Below, one piece after another: positions 14,813-39,898 of a stretch of DNA of 45,302 bases (position 1 is its first letter; every line of letters begins with the position of its first letter). The DNA lies in NCBI GenBank assembly GCA_021732845.1, contig JAKFUF010000075.1, positions 1 to 45,302 on the forward strand, written 5' to 3'. Below the pieces are notes generated by a model. It was not told the DNA's origin. It was given only the letters and a program-made list of their open reading frames with translations, and did not search any database. The position numbers and the translations under genes were made by a program. This DNA comes from Planctomycetaceae bacterium (GTDB lineage: Bacteria > Planctomycetota > Planctomycetia > Planctomycetales > Planctomycetaceae).

Positions 14813-17800
14813 CTACTTTGTTACGGCCGCCGCAGCCACGGCGCTGGGGGCGGCCGTCGGTCCCCGCCGCTGCGTGTGGCTCGCGCTCCCGTTTGCCGCC
14901 CCGCTGGCCGGTTCGGCTTGTGGCTCGGGGTCGCTCGCATTTTTGGCTTCGGTGCCGGTCTTGGCAGGCTTACGGGCGGAACCTGTGCCAGGTTCCGGGG
15001 CCGGGGGCTGTGGCTTGTCCGCGGGGGCTTTCTTGGCGTCGGTGGGCAGAAAGACGCTGTCCAGCAGCCATTCCATCAGTTCCGTCGCCAACGGAGCGGC
15101 ATTGGACTGAGTGGCTGCATCTCCTTCCAACAACCGGCGAACCAGGTTTTCCAGGGACTTCAGCCCCTGCGAGAGCAGGGTGGCCGGCCTTGAGCCCGCG
15201 GCTGGCATTTCGATACGGGTGCCGGCGCGCTCGCCGGAGGCCACAACAGTACTCAGAGTCCGCAGCGAGGCGATGGCGACCAGCGACGACAGGGAAGAGA
15301 GCGAAAGCCCCGCGCCCAACCCGCCGCTGGAAGCTGCGAGCACGTTCGCGGCAATGCTGCCATTGTCAAACGCCGACCGTCCGGCAATGTTGGGATTGTT
15401 GGCGAGACCGCCGAAGTCCAGGAAGACAGAGGTCGTCCCCTTGAACAGCGTGTCGGCAATCGTCACGCCGCGGGTGTTGGCGGCGGAAATGAGGTTGATT
15501 CCGGCCAGGAAGGAGCCCGTGCCTGTTCCCTGAAACTGCACGTTGAGCGACGAAGCCGTGGCATTGGGAATGATCAGCAGTTCGACCGCGCCATCGCCCG
15601 AGTAGCGCGTGCGGCTGCCATATTCGACCACCAGCCCCTCGGCTTTGGTGAACCCCGCCTGACGGCCTTCACCGTCGGTCTGGATGAAGTCGACCGGGTC
15701 GGTCCAGAGCAGCTCCGACGGGCTGACAAACTGGTCGATCCCGCCCATCATGTTGATGTAGGCGTTGACGATGATCTGGTTGATCGCCGCCGCGATTTCC
15801 TGGCGGCTGCGGTCAGTCCGCGTCGACTCCTGGACGATCGCCTCCACCAGCACCTGATAGAGGAACCGCAACTGTTCAGGGGTGACCCCGGCCCCGGGTT
15901 GGGGCGTGGGGTCGGCGACGGCCACACTGATCCGCAGGTTGTACTGGCCGCGGAGGCCGGTGGGGGGCGTGGTCCCCGGAATGGCGGTGGCGACCTTGAT
16001 GAAATAGGTCTGGCCGGCCACCACGTCGAACTGCACCTGCGCGGTGTTTTGCAGCGTCCGGTCGTGGGCGATGCGGGTGTTGTTGATGTCAAAGGCATCC
16101 ACGATCAGCGGCAGCGCCGAGGTCAGGTTGACCGTGGCCCGACCGGAGAACTGGGCCGTGAACTGCTGATAGTCCTGGTCACCGGTGTTATCAATGCTTC
16201 CGCTGAACCCTGCTCCCGCCTGTCCGTTCTCCTGTGGCTGCAAAGGCACGGTCACCGCGTCCCTCGACACGTCGCCTTCGCGGTCCGTCGGCAGGGCGTC
16301 GGTGAGAAATTCCAGCGCCCAGTCGCCCGAGGTGACGCCGAATCCATAGACCTTGATGTAGTAGGCCTGGCCGGCAATTACATTGAAGCGAACGCGGCTG
16401 ATGTCCGTGCCCTGAAAGTCGTCGTTGGTGGTGATCAACTGGCCGGTCGGTCCGCCGGGCTGCAGGACCTCCAGATAGGCATCCAGGATGCTGTCCAGGC
16501 CCGACCGGGCGCGGCCCAGCACCTGGGTGACGGTCAACTGGCCCGTGACCGGAGCCACGAACCGCAGGAAGTCGGTATCGAAGGCAGTGTCGATGGTGGT
16601 GGTGCGTTGACTGGGCGCGTCATTGGAGAGGAACAGATTGCCCCGTCCGGCCGCGAGGTCACGCGAGATGTCGTAGGCGTCCAGAAATTCGTTGCTGATT
16701 TCGTCGACGATGTAGTTAATCGTGAGAATGTAATTGCCCGTCGTGGTTCCAACGGCGGCGCTGCGAATGAAGAACATCCGCCCCGTCTCGACATTGAACC
16801 GCACGGTGGCGGTGCGCTGGCCGCCGATGTTGCTGTCCAGGGCGACCAGGTTGCCGACCTCATCGTATATGAACAGGCCGCTGCCGAAGTCGTCCGACGT
16901 TTGGATGACTTCGACAACCCCGGAGCGCTGCGCGACGAACGAGTAAAAGTCGCGGTCGCGCGGGGTGTCTACTGTTCCAAAAACCGTCGTCGTTGTGGTC
17001 TGCCCCGTCTGGGGAGTTGTCAGCACGATCGGCTGGGAGGTCGCGGTGCTGTCGGGAATATCAGCAATGGTGCGCTGGTAACTGGCTGAAGCACCGCTGA
17101 CATTCAGGGAGTTGCCCGCCAGATCGAAGACAGGCGAGTCACCCTGCAGGCTCACCTGCAGCGTTCCGATTCCCGTGACGCCGCTGAACACCACACGATA
17201 TTGCGTTTGACTGTCCGCGATCACCAGCATGTTGGCGAACGCCACATTGCCGGTTGTCTGCACCACGAAGGCACTGTTGGTGACTCCCACGACCGGCTCG
17301 TCAAACACGACGGTGAACGTCAGCGTGCTGGCCGATGTGGTGGTGGCTACGGGGTCCGTCGGCAGAATTGACACATCGTTCGGGGCAGTCTGGTCGATCG
17401 TGTGCGCGTCACCGGTGAACTGCGTGGCGGTAGTGTTGAGCAGCACGTTGATCCGGTCCGGACCGTTGTGCGAGGAGACGACATCCGGCAACCCGTCGTT
17501 GTTCAAGTCCGAGGTCGCCGCGGCGAAGGTCGCGCCGTCCGTGGTCAGGAACACTCTCAGAATGAATGTTCCGTCGCCCTGCCCCACCAGGATCGAGGGG
17601 ACCGCCGCCAGGTTGGGCGAAATGATATCGAGCGTGCCGTCACCATTCACATCCGCCACGACGGCCGTTGTGGGGAATGGGCCCGCATTGGTGGATTCCG
17701 CGAAGTCAAACTCGCGGCCGGCCAGGCCACGCAGGACGCTGACCGTGCCGTCGGTGATATTGGACACCAGCAGGTCGAGAATGCCGTCATTGTTGAAGTC

Positions 17801-20800
17801 TGCCACGGCAGACGCCTGCCCCCCCCGACCGGCGAGCAGCGTGACCTGCGGCAGAAACGTGCCGTCGCCATTGCCGAACAGGACGCTCAGGTTGTCCGCC
17901 CCGCGGTTCCCCACGAACAGGTCTTGGACTCCATCGCCGTCGAGGTCGGCAACCACCACCGTTTCGGGGCCGAGATTCGTCCCGGCAGTCGTCTGCGGGG
18001 CAAAGGTCCCATCACCGTTCCCCAGCAGAATGCTGACATTCATGCTGGCCTGATTGGTCACCACGATGTCGCGGAAGCCATCGCCGTTCAGGTCGGCCAC
18101 GGCCACTGAATAGGGCCGGGAGCCGACCGCCAGCATGGTCTGCGCCTGGAATGTTCCATTTCCATTTCCCAGCAAGACGCCCACCGAGTCGCTGCCGGTG
18201 TTGGCCACGACCAGATCGAGGTTGCCGTCCTCGTTCACATCCGCCAGGGCGGTGGTGCGCGGATTCAGTCCGGTGGAGAAGCGGGTTTCGCTGCCAAATC
18301 CGCCGGCACCGTCATTGAACCGCACGCTGACGCTGGCGTCGTTCAAATTCGCCGTGACCACGTCGTCAAAGCCGTCGCCGTTCAGATCACCCAGCGAGCT
18401 GAAAACAGTCACGGTGCCCGATGTGTAAACCTGGGCGGGTGCGAACGTCGGTGTCGCGGCGACGATGTTGCCCGAGGCATCCTTGATCGAGGAGTTGTAC
18501 TTGAGCGCCAGGGCGACGGTGCCGTCGCCGATCACGTCGGTGATGATGACGGTATAGGTTGAGCCACCGGTCCCGAGAACTTGAATCGCGCCGGCCGTGA
18601 CTGATCCAGTGGTCACCAGCGTGAAATCGTCTTCAGTGACGCCAAAGACGTTCTCGCTGAAAGAGACGGTGTAGCTCAGCGAATTGCCATTGGTGAGCGC
18701 CGGGCTGTTGCGCGTGATGGACTGAATGCTGGGAGGCATGCGGTCGATGGCGTAGATCTCGCCCAGCCTGTCGCCCGTGGCGTTGTTGATCAGGACACTG
18801 ACACTGTTGCCACTGGAATTGGACGTGGCGATGTCGACCCGGCCATCGCCGTTCATGTCGACGGCGGTCAGCCCACGCGGATTGGGACCGGTGGAGAAGC
18901 TGCCCTGGGAGGTAAACGTGCCATCTCCGTTGTTGAAGAACACACTCAGCGAATCGCTGAAGTAATTGGCGGCGACGATGTCTTCCAGGCCATCGCCATT
19001 GATGTCCTTCGCGAGCACGGCATAGGGAAGGTCGCCGACCGGGAGAGTCTGCGCGGATCCGAAGGTGCCCCCATCGCCAAAAAACGCCGATACGGTGTCG
19101 TCATCACCGTTGCTCACCACGACATCGACGTGCCCGTCGTCGTCAAAGTCCGCGACAGCAATGGACGTTGGGGCATTTCCCGACCCAAAGCCGAGGGGAG
19201 TGTTGAACGTCCCATCGCCAACGGCCGTCATCACACTGAAGCCGCCGTTGGTGAAGTTGGCCGAAAAAACGTCGAGGAAGCCGTCCTCGTTGAAGTCGGC
19301 GAGGGCGATGGAGAAGGTCGCCCCGCCGCTGGCGAAATTGACCGGAGTCAGGAAGGTTCCCGTACCGGTCCCCATCAGCACCGAAAACGTACCGTCAAAG
19401 TTGCCAGTCACCACATCGAGAATGTCGTCAAAATTCAGGTCTGCCACGGCCACCGAAAACGGCTGCAGGCCTGCCACCGACGAGAGGGCCGCCTGAAATG
19501 TGCCATCACCATTTCCCAGGAAGACGTTGATGGTGCTGGATGATGTGGCCGCCACAATCAGGTCGAGATGTCCGTCGTTGTTGACGTCGCCTGTCGTGAC
19601 TGAAAATGGCTCGTTTTCGGTGGTCAGGTCGGGCTGAATGGCGAACGTCCCGTCACCGTTGCCAAGCAGCACGGTGATGCTGTTGCTGGCCGACGACGCA
19701 CCGGCAAGATCGGCGATACCGTCCTCGTTGAAGTCACCCGTGGCGACAGACCGGCCAGCCGATCCCGTGGCATGGTTCACTGGCGCGGCATAGGACACCG
19801 AGCGGCTCGAACTGACGAGCGCGTTGCCCGACAGGTCGCGGATGCTGTTGTCATCGACCAGGTTCAGTTGAACCGTTCCGTCACCCGAGATCCCGGAGAG
19901 CGCGACCCGGTACTGGCTGGCGCTGATTTGGATGACCCGCACCTGGCCGACCGTAAGACTGCCGGTTGTGGTCGTCGTAAAATCGCTCGCGTCGACACCC
20001 GTCACATCCTCGGTGAACGAGACGTTGTAGTACACCGTGGCTCGATTCGTGGCGCTTGTGGGCGGCTCGCCACGGGAAATGGATGCCACGTACGGGGAGA
20101 TCTGAACAACCGTGTACGGATGAAATCCTGTGGTGGTTCCATCCTTCGCATTGAGCTGCACGTTGACTGTGTTCGTCGACTGATTCACCGTGATGACATC
20201 GTCCCGTCCATCTCCGTTGAGGTCGAAGTCCTTGGCGGATGTCGGGGAATTCCCCACGGAAAAAATCTGCGGGCCGCCGAACAGGATTTCTCCGTTCGTG
20301 ACGAGCGCCGTGATGGAGTTTTGGCTCGGACTGCTGGTGACCAGATCAGCAATTCCGTCCCCGTTGAGGTCGCCCGAACTGATGGAGTACGGATTGGCGT
20401 CGACGGGGTAGTCGCTGCGGCTGAAGGTTCCGCTCCCGCCGTTGAACAGAACCGTCACGACACCGCCGGTGTAGCTCGTCGTGGCCACTTCCGGCATGCC
20501 ATCGCCGTTCAAGTCCAGCACGCGCATGGCGGTTGGCGAGCCTGCCACCGCGAACGAGATGGGGGTTTGAAACGTGCCGTCACCATTGCCGCGGAGCAGG
20601 CTGACATCATTCGAGCCCGTGTTCACGACCACCAGGTCGACGAGGCCGTCCGCGTCGATGTTGGCGATGGCTACCCCGTGGGGTGATGTCCCGGTGGCGA
20701 AGGCCGCCTGCGCGCCAAACGTGCCATCCCCATTGTTCAAGAACACACCGACGGTGTTGGAAGACGCATTCGCCACGACGAGGTCCGCGAACCCATCGCC

Positions 20801-21622
20801 ATTCACGTCGCCAGCCGTGACGGCCCGCGGTGCCGTGCCTGTCGTGTACTCGACTTCATTCTGAAATGTCGCATCGCCATTGTTGAGGTAGACCCTCAAA
20901 ATGGAGTTGTCGCCGTTGACCTGCGCGAGATCCAGAAAGCCATCGCTGTTGAAGTCACGGATCGCAATGGAATCCGGCCCGGCAAAGCCCGAACTGCCGG
21001 TGTTGCCGCTGCCGACTCCGTAACCTGTCGCAAAACTGCCGTCTCCATTGCCCAGCAGGATGTTCAAATTGTTGTTGTATTGGTAGGCCACCACCAGATC
21101 CGGGCGGCCATCGCCGTTCAGATCGCCGACAGCCAGCGCGAAGGCATTGCTCGCCGTCGTGTAAGTCTGCGGGGCCTGCAAAGACACTCCCAGATTGCCA
21201 TCCACCAACGCCAAACCGGACAGGTTGCGGATGCTGTCGTTGTCGACCAGTTTCAGGCCGAGCGTGCCATTGCCGGTGATTCCAGAGACGGTGACAAAAT
21301 AATTGATATTGTCGGTGGTGCCAAAATCGATTGTCGTGGCTTGAACCGTTCCCGTCCCCACAGCCACAAAGTCATCGGCGGTCACTCCCGTCACCGCTTC
21401 GCTGAAAACAACCTTAAAATCGACCGTGTCGGCGCTCGTGACCTGCGCCTGGAGCCGGTCGATCGAGTCGACAAACGGATTCCCCGCCAACAATGCCCGT
21501 TGTTCAAGGGCCTCGATCCGCACCGTCGAACGTCCGCGACGACGCTGGGGAGAACTCGGCTCGGAGAAAACCTTGGTCGACAGCAGCCGCTCTATAAATT
21601 GGCGAAAAGTTTGAAAACGCAT
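14813..21622 (-). CDS. Giant exported protein: 3 x 7 FG-GAP repeats, Ig-like and PPC domains
   Basis: A 2269-residue protein. The N-terminus carries the planctomycete extracellular leader (RIEALEQRALLAGNP, about residues 35-50). Then an Ig-like domain of the FSEAVTGVxxxDF type (about 54-150) precedes seven FG-GAP/VCBS repeats (about 155-500); the same pair recurs at about 505-960 and 962-1412, each again with seven repeats. A fourth Ig-like domain (about 1414-1515) leads into three pre-peptidase C-terminal-type beta domains (about 1519, 1644, 1777), a helical segment (about 1912) and a Pro/Ala/Lys-rich low-complexity tail. Nearly every repeat has a DxNxDG calcium-binding loop, as in integrin propellers. 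It is probably a surface or secreted adhesion protein. The tail lacks a known anchor motif. Confidence 0.9.
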   Translation of the reverse strand: MRFQTFRQFIERLLSTKVFSEPSSPQRRRGRSTVRIEALEQRALLAGNPFVDSIDRLQAQVTSADTVDFKVVFSEAVTGVTADDFVAVGTGTVQATTIDFGTTDNINYFVTVSGITGNGTLGLKLVDNDSIRNLSGLALVDGNLGVSLQAPQTYTTASNAFALAVGDLNGDGRPDLVVAYQYNNNLNILLGNGDGSFATGYGVGSGNTGSSGFAGPDSIAIRDFNSDGFLDLAQVNGDNSILRVYLNNGDATFQNEVEYTTGTAPRAVTAGDVNGDGFADLVVANASSNTVGVFLNNGDGTFGAQAAFATGTSPHGVAIANIDADGLVDLVVVNTGSNDVSLLRGNGDGTFQTPISFAVAGSPTAMRVLDLNGDGMPEVATTSYTGGVVTVLFNGGSGTFSRSDYPVDANPYSISSGDLNGDGIADLVTSSPSQNSITALVTNGEILFGGPQIFSVGNSPTSAKDFDLNGDGRDDVITVNQSTNTVNVQLNAKDGTTTGFHPYTVVQISPYVASISRGEPPTSATNRATVYYNVSFTEDVTGVDASDFTTTTTGSLTVGQVRVIQISASQYRVALSGISGDGTVQLNLVDDNSIRDLSGNALVSSSRSVSYAAPVNHATGSAGRSVATGDFNEDGIADLAGASSASNSITVLLGNGDGTFAIQPDLTTENEPFSVTTGDVNNDGHLDLIVAATSSSTINVFLGNGDGTFQAALSSVAGLQPFSVAVADLNFDDILDVVTGNFDGTFSVLMGTGTGTFLTPVNFASGGATFSIALADFNEDGFLDVFSANFTNGGFSVMTAVGDGTFNTPLGFGSGNAPTSIAVADFDDDGHVDVVVSNGDDDTVSAFFGDGGTFGSAQTLPVGDLPYAVLAKDINGDGLEDIVAANYFSDSLSVFFNNGDGTFTSQGSFSTGPNPRGLTAVDMNGDGRVDIATSNSSGNSVSVLINNATGDRLGEIYAIDRMPPSIQSITRNSPALTNGNSLSYTVSFSENVFGVTEDDFTLVTTGSVTAGAIQVLGTGGSTYTVIITDVIGDGTVALALKYNSSIKDASGNIVAATPTFAPAQVYTSGTVTVFSSLGDLNGDGFDDVVTANLNDASVSVRFNDGAGGFGSETRFSTGLNPRTTALADVNEDGNLDLVVANTGSDSVGVLLGNGNGTFQAQTMLAVGSRPYSVAVADLNGDGFRDIVVTNQASMNVSILLGNGDGTFAPQTTAGTNLGPETVVVADLDGDGVQDLFVGNRGADNLSVLFGNGDGTFLPQVTLLAGRGGQASAVADFNNDGILDLLVSNITDGTVSVLRGLAGREFDFAESTNAGPFPTTAVVADVNGDGTLDIISPNLAAVPSILVGQGDGTFILRVFLTTDGATFAAATSDLNNDGLPDVVSSHNGPDRINVLLNTTATQFTGDAHTIDQTAPNDVSILPTDPVATTTSASTLTFTVVFDEPVVGVTNSAFVVQTTGNVAFANMLVIADSQTQYRVVFSGVTGIGTLQVSLQGDSPVFDLAGNSLNVSGASASYQRTIADIPDSTATSQPIVLTTPQTGQTTTTTVFGTVDTPRDRDFYSFVAQRSGVVEVIQTSDDFGSGLFIYDEVGNLVALDSNIGGQRTATVRFNVETGRMFFIRSAAVGTTTGNYILTINYIVDEISNEFLDAYDISRDLAAGRGNLFLSNDAPSQRTTTIDTAFDTDFLRFVAPVTGQLTVTQVLGRARSGLDSILDAYLEVLQPGGPTGQLITTNDDFQGTDISRVRFNVIAGQAYYIKVYGFGVTSGDWALEFLTDALPTDREGDVSRDAVTVPLQPQENGQAGAGFSGSIDNTGDQDYQQFTAQFSGRATVNLTSALPLIVDAFDINNTRIAHDRTLQNTAQVQFDVVAGQTYFIKVATAIPGTTPPTGLRGQYNLRISVAVADPTPQPGAGVTPEQLRFLYQVLVEAIVQESTRTDRSRQEIAAAINQIIVNAYINMMGGIDQFVSPSELLWTDPVDFIQTDGEGRQAGFTKAEGLVVEYGSRTRYSGDGAVELLIIPNATASSLNVQFQGTGTGSFLAGINLISAANTRGVTIADTLFKGTTSVFLDFGGLANNPNIAGRSAFDNGSIAANVLAASSGGLGAGLSLSSLSSLVAIASLRTLSTVVASGERAGTRIEMPAAGSRPATLLSQGLKSLENLVRRLLEGDAATQSNAAPLATELMEWLLDSVFLPTDAKKAPADKPQPPAPEPGTGSARKPAKTGTEAKNASDPEPQAEPASGAANGSASHTQRRGPTAAPSAVAAAAVTK

Positions 21623-35450: not shown

Positions 35451-37757
35451 GTGGTGACCCAAACGGAGATGAGGTCCACAGTTCCCCTCGAAGCCGCACG
35501 CGAATACGTGCGACGCGGCTGGAGCGTTGTGCCCGTACCATTCAAGCAGAAGCGACCGGTCCTCAAGGAATGGGAACAACTTCGGCTGGCCGAGTCCGAT
35601 CTCGACCAATACTTCGACCAGCCCGCGAACGTGGGTCTGATTCTCGGCGAGCCATCGCACGGTTTGGTCGACGTCGATCTCGACTGTGTCGAAGCCCGAG
35701 CCATCGCTGCGAACTACCTGCCGCCAACGCCGGCCAAGACGGGACGGGCCACGGCCACCGATTCGCATTGGTGGTATTACGCCGTCGGTGCGAAGACAGT
35801 TCAGCATCGTGATCCCGTCACAAAGCAGATGATTGTCGAGTTGAGGTCGACTGGCGGACAGACGGTCGTGGGCCCGAGCATTCATCCGACCGGTCAACCG
35901 TATGATGTTCTGCGTGGTGAACCGGCGGTTGTCCCTGCCGAGATGCTGACTTCGTGCGTTGAAGAGTTGGCCAAGCGGGTGATTGAACTGCGGCATGGCG
36001 ATCAGCCAACGGCAGCAGTTCGAAATCGGAACCCACAAGCGGTTGATCGACATCGCGTTGATTCCCCGAGCGACATCGAACGCCGCGCCCTGGCGTACCT
36101 CGACAAGCTTCCGCCGGCAATCAGTGGCAATGGGGGACATGCGGCCACGTATGCTGCGGCGACGGTCCTCGTTCATGGGTTCGAGATCGATCCCGACCGG
36201 GCTTTGTCGCTGCTACTCGATCACTTCAACCCCAGGTGCGAACCACCGTGGTCGGAGAAGGAACTTCGGCACAAAGTCACCAGTGCCGCAACGAAGCCAC
36301 ACAGCCAATCACGCGGTTGGCTACTCAATGAACAACGCGAACCCTCGCCTGATTCCGTCGTTGATATCTCGGCACTGGTCGGACAGGCCGCTGAAACCAC
36401 GCTGTCACCGCGAATCGAAGTCATCAACGATGATAGACCAATCGAGCCGTCCACCGCTGATCCCGGTCCGATTCCTGATGACCTACTGCACGTTCCAGGC
36501 TTCGTTGATGACGTGACCGAGTTCACATTAGCGACGGCCCCGTATCCGAATCGTCCGTTGGCGTTCGTGGGGGCAATCGCTCTGCTCGGGACGCTCACTG
36601 GCCGCAAAGTCCGCGAACCAGGGAACGTTCGCACGAACGTGCAGATTCTGGCGCTGGCGAGTTCCGGCGTCGGGAAGGACTGGCCGCGCAAGGTCAACGC
36701 GAGCGTTCTGCTCCATGCTGAGGAAACCCGCAAACTCGCAGGCAAATCGGCGAGCGGCGAAGGGATCGAAGACCGCCTGATCGGTCATCCGATCATTCTC
36801 AAACAGGATGACGAGATCGACACGCTATTCGAGAACATGCGGGACAACAAAGAGGCTCGGTATCGCAATCAGTTCGGCATGCTGCTCGAACTGTATGGGG
36901 AAGCTGGCGGCTGGCGAGCGATCCGCGATCGCGCTGGCGAGAAATCGGGCCTGATCTATCAGCCGCACCTGGTTCTGTTCGGAACGACAACACCGGGTGA
37001 GTTCTACGCATCGCTGTCCGGCAAGATGCTCAACAAAGGGCTGCTCGCTCGACTTATCACCGTCGAAGCGGGCGAGCGTGGTCGTCGTAAACGTGCCGAT
37101 TGGCGTGATCCGCCAGAGTCGATCATCGCCATCGCCAAACAGTGGTCGACCTTTTGGCCTCCCGGCTGGGGCAACCTCAGCGACGAATCGTGCGGGCAAG
37201 CAACGCCGCTCGTCGTTCCCCTCACGGACGATGCGCAACGAGCGCTCGATGCGTTTGCGGATCGCTGCGACGATGCCTACCGCGACTCCGCGAAGAGGGG
37301 CAACGAACCCGTCATGGCGATCTGGGCACGCGCCGTCGAAAAAGCCACGCAACTGGCGTTGATCTATGCCTGTTCCAAACACGGCATCACGCCGGTGATC
37401 GAGCATCCTGCCGTTACCTGGGCAAGCGGCTTCGTTGAGCACACGATCCGCCGCACGATCCATATGCTCGGACGACATTTCCACGAAAGCGAATTCGAGC
37501 AGAAATGTCAGCAAGTCATCGAGACGTTGACCATGTGGCAGCGCGAACATGGCATTGAATGGATGCCCTCTCGCGACATCGCCCGCAAGCATCGCTGGCC
37601 TCAGAAAGAACACGATGCAATCCGCGAAACCCTCGCCGTCCAGGAGCGGATCGAGACGGCATTCATGAAGCCTGACGGAGCGGGGCGGCCCAAGCACGTC
37701 TGCCGTCTATTCTGTCCCGACACGGAATTCTGTCCAAAAGCGGTGCGCACGGATTGA
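35451..37757 (+). CDS. Primase-polymerase/helicase-like replication protein
   Basis: A 768-residue replication protein. The N-terminal prim-pol domain has DVDLDC (D74, D76; metal site), a histidine in DSHWWY and ELRSTGGQTVVGPSIHPTG. A primase C-terminal-like part follows (ALAYLDKLPPAISGNGGHAATYAAATVLVHGFEI ... EKELRHKVTSA). From about residue 340 comes a DUF3987-like ATPase domain; its P-loop reads ASSGVGKDWPRK (about 402-413), with D where S/T is usual. The start is GTG at 35451 or 35454, with ATG at 35469 also possible. It would both prime and help unwind. The 3' end already contains two copies of the nonamer found downstream. Confidence 0.85.
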   Translation: MVTQTEMRSTVPLEAAREYVRRGWSVVPVPFKQKRPVLKEWEQLRLAESDLDQYFDQPANVGLILGEPSHGLVDVDLDCVEARAIAANYLPPTPAKTGRATATDSHWWYYAVGAKTVQHRDPVTKQMIVELRSTGGQTVVGPSIHPTGQPYDVLRGEPAVVPAEMLTSCVEELAKRVIELRHGDQPTAAVRNRNPQAVDRHRVDSPSDIERRALAYLDKLPPAISGNGGHAATYAAATVLVHGFEIDPDRALSLLLDHFNPRCEPPWSEKELRHKVTSAATKPHSQSRGWLLNEQREPSPDSVVDISALVGQAAETTLSPRIEVINDDRPIEPSTADPGPIPDDLLHVPGFVDDVTEFTLATAPYPNRPLAFVGAIALLGTLTGRKVREPGNVRTNVQILALASSGVGKDWPRKVNASVLLHAEETRKLAGKSASGEGIEDRLIGHPIILKQDDEIDTLFENMRDNKEARYRNQFGMLLELYGEAGGWRAIRDRAGEKSGLIYQPHLVLFGTTTPGEFYASLSGKMLNKGLLARLITVEAGERGRRKRADWRDPPESIIAIAKQWSTFWPPGWGNLSDESCGQATPLVVPLTDDAQRALDAFADRCDDAYRDSAKRGNEPVMAIWARAVEKATQLALIYACSKHGITPVIEHPAVTWASGFVEHTIRRTIHMLGRHFHESEFEQKCQQVIETLTMWQREHGIEWMPSRDIARKHRWPQKEHDAIRETLAVQERIETAFMKPDGAGRPKHVCRLFCPDTEFCPKAVRTD

Positions 37758-37974
37758 GGCCGAAAATCGGATTCTGTCCACGGACAGAATCAATTTTGTC
37801 CGAAGAATTCGGGACAGAATTCGGGTGACGCAATCAGCGGAAAAACAAGGAGTTAGAGAAGGAGAGAGAGAGAGAAATGAATTCTGTCCATTCTGTCCAT
37901 GCCCCTTCTCTCTCCCCTCTTTCTGCTCCTGACTTTGTACCGGCGAGTGTGATCAACGGACAGAAGGACAGAAT
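37709..37974. repeat. Iteron-like cluster of ATTCTGTCC nonamers (possible replication origin)
   Basis: ATTCTGTCC occurs at 37709-37717, 37727-37735, 37771-37779, 37881-37889 and 37890-37898, and its complement GGACAGAAT at 37782-37790, 37812-37820 and 37966-37974, plus near-copies at about 37793 and 37958. Sites 37771-37790 make a palindrome with a 2-bp centre. The tandem pair at 37881 is flanked by GAGAGAGAA (37868-37876) and TTCTCTCTC (37906-37914), in a purine/pyrimidine-rich tract. Adjacent to a primase gene and in the longest gene-free stretch of the element, this suggests an origin. Confidence 0.7.
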
Positions 37975-38002
37975 TCAATTCGACGCGATTGCACCCTGGT
38001 GA

Positions 38003-38209
38003 CCGACTGGTGCGGTCAGTTCCGACAACGAGCCACATGAGGCCACCACGATCGCCCACGTTTGCGCGTATGGCGTTCGTGTTCGAGCGCCGAACGGTTC
38101 GTCCGGTCGTCGTTTGAACGCCACTGAAGCCCAGCGGGTGGCCCACAACGCGATCACGACTTACGTCGAGAGCCGTCATAGGTACTCCCGACGCCATAAG
38201 GCTTTGTGA
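38003..38209 (+). other. Open frame of 68 codons without a start codon
   Basis: After a TGA at 38000-38002, a frame stays open to a TGA at 38207-38209. Its product looks protein-like (EATTIAHVCAYGVRVRAP, then RLNATEAQRVAHNAI), but the first possible starts are an internal TTG and GTG far downstream. It may be the end of a broken gene, or be reached by frameshift, or be chance. Otherwise the gap 37758-38273 holds only the nonamer cluster. Confidence 0.25.
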
Positions 38210-38250
38210 CGCCATTGGGAACCGTCGCCGTCTACCACAGACTTTCTTTC

Positions 38251-38258
38251 CTGTACAG
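38251..38258. promoter_or_regulatory. Small palindrome before the Phd-like gene
   Basis: CTGTACAG at 38251-38258 lies 15 bp before the ATG of the Phd-like gene, in a TTTCC...GAAAA context. Antitoxins often autorepress from such sites. Short palindromes occur by chance, so the support is weak. Confidence 0.25.
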
Positions 38259-38273
38259 AAAATGTAACTCCCC

Positions 38274-38516
38274 ATGCCCTCGGATGTTGAGACGCTCAAC
38301 GAACTGGAAGTCGGCGTCACGGAACTGCGGGACTCGCTGGGGTTCACCATCCGCCACGTTGCCCAATCCGGCGTTCCGGTCGTTGTCCGGCGCTACCGAC
38401 GGACGGACGTGATCCTGGTCCCGCTGACCGAATGGCGGCGGCTCAAGCAGTTGGAAGCCGAGATCGGCGGGCCAGACCCTTTCGAATTCGACGAGGACGA
38501 ATCTGACGCCGAGTGA
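38274..38516 (+). CDS. Phd/YefM-like antitoxin-type small protein (no toxin partner seen)
   Basis: An 80-residue protein (MPSDVETLNELEV). The stretch NELEVGVTELRDSLGFTIRHVAQSGVPVVVRRYRRTDVILVPLTEWRRLKQLEAEI follows the Phd/YefM pattern of helix, then SGxPVVV strand, then a strand carrying the VPLxEWRRL ending that in antitoxins leads to the toxin-binding region; here an acidic tail (FEFDEDESDAE) takes its place. No toxin-like gene is next to it; the neighbours are the nonamer cluster and a methyltransferase. It could be a regulator, or an antitoxin against a host toxin. Call by fold pattern only. Confidence 0.6.
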   Translation: MPSDVETLNELEVGVTELRDSLGFTIRHVAQSGVPVVVRRYRRTDVILVPLTEWRRLKQLEAEIGGPDPFEFDEDESDAE

Positions 38517-38584
38517 TCCCTCAGGTTGCCGCCTGAATGCCTTACCCAAAACGACAAAACCGCCACCAACCCGGAGAGCCACAC

Positions 38585-39898
38585 ATGCAGATCGAAACCT
38601 GGCCTATCGACCGTCCGCAACCGTATGACAAAAACCCTCGACTGAATGACGATGCCGTCGACGTCGTCGCACGCTCGATTCAGGAGTTCGGTTTCCGACA
38701 GCCGATTGTGGTCGATGAAGACGGTGTGGTCATCATTGGCCACACGCGGCTCAAGGCCGCCAAGAAGCTCGGGCTGACCGAAGTCCCAGTGCATGTCGCC
38801 CGCGGGTTGTCGCCGGAGAAGGTCAAGGCGCTGCGCATCGCGGACAACAAAACCGCCGAACTCGCCGAGTGGAACCTGGAACTGCTGCCGATCGAACTGG
38901 CTGAGCTGCAAGGGATGGACTTCGATCTGGGATTGCTCGGGTTCGATCAGGATGAGTTGGCCAAGCTGCTCGATCCCGGTGCCCAGGACGGACTCTGCGA
39001 TCCCGACGAGATTCCATTGCCACCCGATGAAGCGATCACCAAGCCGGGTGACCTGTGGATTCTCGGTGAGCATCGGCTGCTTTGCGGCGACAGCAGCAAG
39101 CCTGCAGACCTCGACCGCTTGCTGGATGGCCAGCCGATTCATCTTTGTAACACCGATCCGCCATACAACGTAAAGGTTGAACCGCGCAGCAACAACGCTA
39201 TCGCGGCGGGTCTGTCATCGTTCCAGGGGACCACGCATCATCAGTCGATGGACGTGGCTCGACATCCCGAGAAGTCAAAACCCACGCAGAAGAAGTTGCG
39301 AGCCAAGGACCGCCCGCTGGCCAACGACTTCGTGTCGGACGAGGAGTTCGACCGGCTACTCGACGCCTGGTTCGGCAACATCGCCCGCGTGCTGGTCCCA
39401 GGTCGGGGGTTCTACATCTGGGGCGGGTATGCCAACTGTGCGAACTACCCGCCGTTCCTCAAGAAACACGGGTTGTACTTCTCCCAATCCATCATCTGGG
39501 ATAAGCAGCATCCCGTCCTCACAAGAAAAGATTTTATGGGCGCTCACGAATGGTGCTTTTATGGATGGAAGGAAGGGGCGGCGCACCAATACCTCGGCCC
39601 GAATAACGCGACCGACCTGTGGCACATCAAGAAGGTGAACCCGCAGAGCATGGTCCACCTGACCGAGAAGCCGGTCGAACTGGCCGTGCGGGCGATGCAG
39701 TACTCATCCCGGACCGGCGAAAACGTCCTCGATCTCTTCGGCGGCAGTGGCTCAACCCTGATCGCCGCGCAGCAAACCGGTCGGCGGGCGTTCCTGATGG
39801 AACTCGATCAATTGTACTGCGACGTGATTGTCCAACGGTACGAACAGTTCACAGGGCAGAAGGCGGAACGCATTGCCGTTGCCAAGATCGCCGCGTGA
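38585..39898 (+). CDS. ParB-N domain/DNA methyltransferase fusion
   Basis: About 437 residues from ATG at 38585 (MQIETWPIDRP), preceded by GGAGAG; the upstream in-frame ATG at 38537 gives residues outside the domain. The ParB-like nuclease domain comes first (PYDKNPRLNDDAVDVVARSIQEFGFRQPIVVDEDGVVIIGHTRLKAAKKLG). The methyltransferase follows: catalytic TDPPYNV (about residue 190) before the SAM-binding DLFGGSGST (about residue 382), the beta-class order, for an amino-methylated adenine or N4-cytosine. It probably protects the element's DNA or modifies it during packaging. No restriction endonuclease is nearby. Confidence 0.9.
   Translation: MQIETWPIDRPQPYDKNPRLNDDAVDVVARSIQEFGFRQPIVVDEDGVVIIGHTRLKAAKKLGLTEVPVHVARGLSPEKVKALRIADNKTAELAEWNLELLPIELAELQGMDFDLGLLGFDQDELAKLLDPGAQDGLCDPDEIPLPPDEAITKPGDLWILGEHRLLCGDSSKPADLDRLLDGQPIHLCNTDPPYNVKVEPRSNNAIAAGLSSFQGTTHHQSMDVARHPEKSKPTQKKLRAKDRPLANDFVSDEEFDRLLDAWFGNIARVLVPGRGFYIWGGYANCANYPPFLKKHGLYFSQSIIWDKQHPVLTRKDFMGAHEWCFYGWKEGAAHQYLGPNNATDLWHIKKVNPQSMVHLTEKPVELAVRAMQYSSRTGENVLDLFGGSGSTLIAAQQTGRRAFLMELDQLYCDVIVQRYEQFTGQKAERIAVAKIAA

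Follow-up and report, generated by a model that had tools for sequence, protein, structure and literature searches.

We identified a probable replication origin at the 3' end of a primase-helicase gene in a 45,302-base contig (JAKFUF010000075.1, referred to below as the window) of a 9.25-Mb Planctomycetaceae genome (assembly GCA_021732845.1). The contig encodes a terminase large subunit, ResIII/DEAD helicase, metallophosphoesterase, dATP/dGTP diphosphohydrolase, Prim-Pol/DUF3987 protein and ParB-methyltransferase, and because of these genes the element is judged to be a phage or prophage. A cluster of nonamer repeats (ATTCTGTCC) begins within the primase gene and continues behind it. This region is very likely an iteron origin bound by the winged helix of the primase-helicase itself, as in the replicons of Staphylococcus aureus pathogenicity islands (SaPI), phage-inducible chromosomal islands (PICI) and P4, with the addition of a stem-loop like that of the archaeal plasmid pRN1. 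The iteron origin fits best because the place of the repeats is conserved in many relatives, the repeated word covaries with the winged helix, and proven origins (SaPI/PICI, pRN1) have a similar layout. A first-pass annotation of this DNA had proposed either an iteron origin adjoining its initiator or a dense operator cluster, and our results support the former.

Within 266 bases (37709-37974) we counted eight exact and two one-mismatch copies of the nonamer, confirming the earlier estimate of about ten (Table 1). All eight exact copies in the window lie here and none elsewhere, and ten other one-mismatch sites scattered over the window are close to the chance number (mean 8.79, standard deviation 3.15 in whole-window shuffles). 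A 9-mer scan from -60 to +400 relative to the primase stop gave 9 non-overlapping copies compared to no more than 4 in 20 dinucleotide shuffles, and in the whole genome same-orientation pairs of ATTCTGTCC with a gap of 30 bases or less were found solely at this cluster (3 matches). The architecture described in the first-pass annotation was also recovered: the copies at 37709 and 37727 precede the stop codon (37755-37757) and place the start of the cluster inside the primase 3' end, a palindromic pair (37770-37779/37782-37791) has 10-bp arms with a 2-nt gap, and the tandem pair at 37881-37898 is surrounded by a purine/pyrimidine inverted repeat (37859-37873/37907-37921, 80% matched, with two 9-bp cores at 100%). 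A stronger structure, overlooked there, is a hairpin with the tandem pair in one arm and the inverted pair of 37958-37974 in the other (score 20 compared to at most 10 in 5 shuffles). The region combines several short repeats beside the proposed initiator gene with an adjacent AT-rich segment (up to 0.60 in the window), as is typical of iteron origins.

Relatives of the window primase (P0001) were found in 29 of 170 genomes of the family (E 1e-30), in 39 of 392 genomes drawn evenly from the phylum (E 1e-40) and at 3 viral-contig loci; the five in named genomes lie in Planctomycetaceae or Planctomycetota metagenome-assembled genomes. Leaving out 24 overlapping or repeated loci by name and removing 5 duplicates yielded 81 loci, of which 9 were dropped (no stop codon in the stretch or a region shorter than 250 bases) and 72 were usable; 13 named loci (P4-type by eye, truncated or odd) were excluded from C-terminal analyses, and 3 more from alignment A1. 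De novo 9-mers were counted in the same -60 to +400 interval against 20 shuffles per locus. Six or more copies of a locus-specific 9-mer were present at 40 of the 72 primase loci, in none of the 72 coding controls and in 5 of 63 next downstream segments, and 51 of the 72 exceeded all their shuffles. The word itself is specific to the locus, for example CTTTTGTCC, CTTTTCTCC, ATTTCTGCC, TCTTTCACC, AATCCGTCA or ACCTATTGC. In the clade of the window (window, L043, L042, L008, L041 and L006; L denotes loci and G genomes) the spacing of the iterons is kept, with 43-44 bases separating a forward copy from the palindrome, 11 for the palindrome pair, 8-9 for the tandem pair and the inverted pair about 75 bases further. 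The first-pass annotation had suggested searching for the nonamer in relatives and regarded its absence as a refutation. The nonamer was absent from most relatives, but a different word often occupied the same place; because other words often replace ATTCTGTCC at this position, its absence is a misleading criterion. Chance or low-complexity repeats without function are hardly credible as an explanation: some loci do have purine/pyrimidine-rich words and tracts, and 21 of 72 are not above shuffles, but the counts at the 51 other loci, the coding controls (0 of 72 with six or more copies), the conserved place and the conserved spacing in the window's clade all argue against it.

Hairpins scoring at least 14 were detected at 35 of the 40 iteron loci, and 31 of these 35 had an iteron in both arms. 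Across 37 loci, mean AT content was about 0.40 within the gene and increased to 0.58 at +100 to +160 after the primase. Long inverted repeats of changing sequence in many loci could also indicate a structured RNA (e.g., a riboregulator or terminator) in which pairing is conserved while the letters drift. This is very improbable, since many copies are direct repeats, the word follows a domain of DNA-binding type (see below), stem mismatches have no G-U strand bias (7 G.T vs 11 A.C and 36 other), and in 37300-38600 no match to any Rfam family was at or above the gathering score, the matches there being just microRNA models below threshold on the GAGA/CTCT tract.

The domain in question is the C-terminus of the primase. 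An AlphaFold2 model of residues 629-768 has a winged-helix fold (predicted local distance difference test score 91) with helices at 707-713 and 718-730. Foldseek returned zero matches to this model at E 0.001 or better; in a second structural comparison the best match had Z 10.7 and a root-mean-square deviation of 1.5 over 66 residues. The P4 origin-binding domain was absent among the best 50 structural matches listed, which excludes nothing. In an hmmsearch against PDB chains, RPC6 was matched at E 4e-5, and the other rows shown were nearly all calmodulins, which we regarded as chance. We compared word similarity with C-terminal identity over 37 loci (666 pairs), using residues 330-670 as the body control. 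The partial correlation was 0.536 for residues 691-750 (equaled in 0 of 2000 permutations) and 0.52 for residues 701-745, compared to at most 0.11 for 45-residue windows within residues 11-670. Single-column peaks occurred at residues 707 (0.54), 708 (0.46), 711 (0.55) and 718 (0.42), with a standard deviation of 0.065 and a maximum of 0.225 in background columns 400-670. On this strong covariation, the C-terminal domain would probably be the reader of the iterons; in SaPI/PICI that role belongs to the C-terminal domain of Rep.

The alternative of an operator cluster, in which the repeats bind a regulator (the Phd-like protein, the ParB-methylase or another) of the downstream operon, would account for the density of direct and inverted sites ahead of a small Phd-like gene, and origins and operators can overlap. 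However, a Phd-like gene was found in just 3 of 86 loci (window, L006 and L044; many flanks were short), where it was approximately 80% identical beside three different words, and an operator cluster read by this protein was not supported. Methylase identity did not predict the word either (r 0.05 vs 0.69 for the primase C-terminus; 184 pairs of 20 loci). In these comparisons, which used the longest matched piece per locus (approximately 40 residues for L007 and L068), 20 pairs had methylases at least 80% identical, and the word differed in 17 of them and was common to 3; after dropping 5 pairs resting on methylase fragments of approximately 40 residues, 14 of 15 differed and 1 of 15 had the same word. 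Judged by these sequence comparisons, the word follows the primase winged helix and not the downstream methylase, and an operator read by either neighbor is improbable. Neither of these downstream genes is favored as the reader.

Additional evidence came from otherwise similar primases in which helix and word differ jointly. L045 and L046 have 97% identity in the body and 36% in the C-terminus, and their words (AATCCGTCA and TCTTTCACC, respectively) are unrelated. The winged helix and word also differ together in two pairs that each reside in one genome, L079/L100 (body 91%, C-terminus 26%) and L010/L046 (body 90%, C-terminus 32%). DNA homology is lost 163-262 bases ahead of the stop codon, a point that falls inside the winged helix or at its beginning, and resumes past the repeats in L033/L083 (+264/+305, 79% over 883 bases), L079/L100 (+553/+290, 81% over 401) and L017/L045 (+270/+636, 89% over 196). 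Among 16 same-genome pairs, 14 had 0-2 cross matches, and G260 and G513 shared a weak word; in the 5 of 16 pairs with at least six copies on both sides, a shared word was found in 0 of 5. This compatibility count is weakened because identical copies L051 (in the genome of L050) and L099 (in the genome of L081) had been removed earlier as duplicates.

Several residues of the winged helix appear to be associated with particular bases. Among 72 aligned rows, Arg-Asp at 708-709 was accompanied by TGTCC in 14 of 15 rows, and TGTCC occurred in 0 of the 57 other rows, although 9 of the 14 had been found through the word and the rows are non-independent; without 13 motif-first rows the corresponding counts are 5, 1, 0 and 53. 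The exception is L087 (word TGTGTCACA). Residues 708-709 are His-Leu in L007 (word CTTTTCTCC) and Leu-Leu in L042 (word ATTTCTGCC), and His was present at 707 in all 11 rows with a TTCAC/GTGAA word. We further scanned viral contigs for the words alone. An inverted pair of AATCCGTCA was found in 24 stretches, with 4 clusters, all four located behind primases with an L010-type helix, that of L272 being assigned from a C-terminal fragment. The CTTTTGTCC tandem was found in 18 stretches (10 clusters), 6 of which lie behind family primases, all Y-R-D or K-R-D (one, L252, is the contig of L041), and 4 of 10 had no family primase within the stretch examined. For the ATTCTGTCC pair there were at least 120 stretches and at least 29 clusters, at least 5 of them behind family primases, all S-R-D (one, L136, is the contig of L043); among the matches listed, 4 of the 5 S-R-D primases share approximately 26% identity with the closest of ten reference primases, and several of the remaining clusters are 12-bp tandem repeats.

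The same scans and loci yielded other arrangements. Clusters similar to ATTCTGTCC were located behind a large open reading frame (ORF) in L191 (at 6844; D5-type primase-helicase by Pfam) and L225 (at 6593, same layout). In L157, L158, L161, L171, L189 and L207, ATTCTGTCC-like arrays spaced by 10-11 bases have flanking inverted copies; arrays of this type are often beside an ORF of 250-370 residues with no family primase in the stretch and may represent another replicon type. A lone ATTCTGTCCCATTCTGTCC pair is present at 1501-1519 of L004 (G067), a family genome without a primase match to P0001.

We tentatively propose, as a possibility somewhat short of even, a simple code at residues 707-709, with S-R-D for ATTCTGTCC, Y/K-R-D for CTTTTGTCC, Y-H-L for CTTTTCTCC, Y-L-L for ATTTCTGCC and His-707 for TTCAC. 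In this proposal Prim-Pol/DUF3987 replicons would carry at their 3' end an exchangeable specificity cassette made up of the reader helix and the iteron-armed stem-loop, and its turnover may be driven by the need of co-resident elements for unshared origins; the TGTCC repeats in pRN1 and pIT3 would follow the same plan and might represent the motif that the authors of the pRN1 study could not identify.

A number of results weigh against an origin read by the winged helix or limit its generality. Thirty-two of the 72 loci carry fewer than six copies. The correlation between word and C-terminus is gone (-0.02, 394 pairs) when body identity is below 0.45, the permutations ignore phylogeny, and the C-terminus and iterons adjoin on the DNA, so that joint inheritance inflates the correlation. 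Homology resumed downstream in just 3 of 9 pairs tested by rule, 5 further pairs being excluded because their flanks were too short. The code is not one-to-one: 7 of 18 His-707 rows have words without TTCAC, and L100 has the word AATCCGTCA yet its helix is just partly L010-like. A DNA fold reproduced the window stem, but its energy is not unusual (z -1.36); hairpins scoring at least 14 also occurred in 11 of 72 coding controls, and loop lengths vary from 20 to 101. Among 8 phage relatives and 1 bacterial plasmid relative, clusters were detected in Sphingomonas phage Kharn and Spartinivicinus plasmid pC (6 and 9 copies, respectively), but 6 of the 8 phage records had neither a cluster nor a strong hairpin, and one more had a hairpin without iterons.

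The last case is Loktanella phage pCB2051-A (L118), in which a hairpin with 41-base arms and a 64-nt loop but no iterons is located 74-219 bases past the primase stop (score 35 compared to at most 13 in 5 shuffles); here a phage from a different phylum has a pRN1-like stem-loop. In six planctomycete elements (L096, L097, L098, L105, L108 and L052) the primase is of another Prim-Pol-containing kind, P4-type by eye, and repeat clusters or hairpins also follow the gene, with words such as TGGAACGCG (10 copies) and ACTGTCGCG.

The layout was compared with known systems. In SaPI/PICI, iterons are located directly 3' of the helicase/primase initiator gene and recognized by the C-terminal domain of Rep, two iteron sets flank an AT-rich region, and cloned pri-rep-ori segments replicate (PMC7581432, PMC6092414). 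The window likewise has iterons directly 3' of the proposed initiator gene and two sets around an AT-rich stretch. In contrast to the Rep proteins of DUF927 or D5/Primase_Cterm type, however, its primase consists of Prim-Pol and DUF3987, the latter a predicted helicase (PMC5862659); the element is planctomycete with a terminase large subunit, and its iterons extend into the initiator gene and also serve as the arms of a stem-loop. Pfam detected just these two domains in the window primase, with no DUF927, D5/Primase_Cterm, SF3/D5-type or TOPRIM match. In pRN1, the essential origin is a stem-loop after the Prim-Pol gene (21-nt stem, 58-nt loop) whose sequence varies while its structure is conserved, and its authors report no iterons and describe the binding motifs as "not yet identified" (PMC4234260). 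Both systems have a Prim-Pol protein with a C-terminal winged helix and a stem-loop 3' of its gene (stem of about 20-25, loop of 59 in the window), whereas pRN1 has an SF3/D5-type helicase (matches to D5_N, DUF5906 and Pox_D5) that P0001 lacks. Recomputing the pRN1 hairpin, we found TGTCCA twice per arm, 9 bases apart (TTATGTCC ATAGTGTCC), and nowhere else in the plasmid. The window tandem matched the pRN1 stem arm at 15 of 18 letters, which equals the best of 30 whole-plasmid shuffles and is suggestive only; no sequence homology between the window winged helix and the pRN1 C-terminus was detected apart from one 13-column match. pIT3 (L125), an archaeal Prim-Pol plasmid, has a clear iteron array: all of its 7 TGTCCA copies lie 63-225 bases past the Rep stop, and TGTCCATCG, allowing one mismatch, occurs 9 times at 45-255 bases past it (at most 3 in shuffles). 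In pORA1 a different word is repeated 8 times (at most 5 in shuffles), and pDL10 exceeds shuffles by one; by the same 9-mer count pRN1, pRN2, pHEN7 and pSSVx were not above shuffles.

Other systems share fewer features. P4 alpha is a primase-helicase whose C-terminal winged helix, a fold also predicted for the window primase, binds origin repeats, but its primase is TOPRIM and not Prim-Pol (PMC4234260). At the putative SCCmec (staphylococcal cassette chromosome mec) origin, the C-terminal domain of helicase Cch2 binds repeats downstream of its operon, but the primase is separate, there are three 5-nt iterons and the region is highly similar between elements (PMC7581432). Closely related geminiviruses have different iterons, each recognized by its cognate Rep (PMC12548392), which is an unrelated rolling-circle protein of another virus class, and the PLE (phage-inducible chromosomal island-like element) satellite has an unrelated RepA_N initiator (PMC7145576). 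By analogy, the window system appears to work like the SaPI/PICI and pRN1 types, and by protein type (DUF3987 helicase) it is a member of neither. We found no prior description of this system in the literature searched, a coverage that mostly omitted subscription papers. Its co-evolution signal is unusually clear.

The repeats might also serve primase autoregulation or copy-number control, as an incompatibility determinant read by the winged helix while replication starts elsewhere. The same covariation evidence applies to this alternative. P4 has a second iteron locus with a copy-number and incompatibility role. However, the window has no second exact cluster, and the pRN1 and SaPI/PICI origins likewise lie directly after the initiator gene; we therefore consider control in place of initiation unlikely.

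In the proposed origin mechanism, 37.70-37.98 kb would be the replication origin of the (pro)phage, and the C-terminal winged helix of the primase-helicase would bind the nonamers as iterons, residues at approximately 707-718 being those that set the word. Two iteron sets would be placed around the A+T/purine-rich stretch, the second forming the stem-loop arms; the bound protein may load the DUF3987 helicase, whereupon the strands would open and the Prim-Pol domain would prime. Reader and repeats may constitute one cassette, changed or exchanged as a unit, giving each element a private origin, and compatibility may be the selective cause. For a family of uncharacterized planctomycete phages and mobile elements, such a system would supply predictions of the origin, the initiator and the binding word, and it would join two origin types that were described separately, iterons (SaPI/PICI) and stem-loop (pRN1). 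Dozens of winged-helix/word pairs form a natural library for direct testing of a DNA-recognition code, and the cassette suggests a concrete, testable explanation for the co-residence of closely related elements in one cell.

Table 1. Features of the predicted origin region and its neighbors in the window
Feature	Position	Strand	Remarks
Primase-helicase gene, proposed initiator	35451..37757	+	Translation; Pfam Prim-Pol PF09250 and DUF3987 PF13148; PHROGs DNA primase; C-terminal winged helix
Winged-helix coding part (residues 681-753; predicted specificity positions 707-718 = 37569-37604)	37491..37709	+	AlphaFold2 model, structural matches, covariation peak
Iteron ATTCTGTCC	37709..37717	+	Exact, within primase ORF
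Iteron	37727..37735	+	Exact, within primase ORF
Iteron, palindrome left half	37771..37779	+	Exact
Iteron, palindrome right half	37782..37790	-	Exact
Iteron ATTTTGTCC	37793..37801	+	One mismatch
Iteron	37812..37820	-	Exact
A+T/purine-rich spacer between two iteron sets, candidate unwinding region	37821..37873	.	AT 0.53-0.60 (40-base windows)
Stem-loop	37874..37981	.	Arms 37874-37898 and 37958-37981, loop 37899-37957 (59 nt)
Iteron, tandem pair, 5' stem arm	37881..37889	+	Exact
Iteron, tandem pair, 5' stem arm	37890..37898	+	Exact
Iteron CTTCTGTCC, 3' stem arm	37958..37966	-	One mismatch
Iteron, 3' stem arm	37966..37974	-	Exact
Phd/YefM-like ORF, neighbor, not favored as reader	38274..38516	+	Below Pfam cut-off
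ParB-N + N6/N4 methyltransferase, neighbor in many related loci, not favored as reader	38537..39898	+	

The fusion of ParB-N and N6/N4-methyltransferase is located 3' of the predicted origin region in many related loci and is often more than 80% identical despite differing primase C-termini. The cumulative GC skew of the window has a shallow minimum at 39-40 kb, approximately 2 kb beyond the repeat region, and no terminal overlap of the window ends was found with 15-30 letters. An ORF of 2269 residues (14813-21622) matched only a PHROG without assigned function, and that weakly. A second primase, 74% identical, is present in the genome of the window (G000, contig C225; L056, 7111-8966), and its similarity ends near the contig end.

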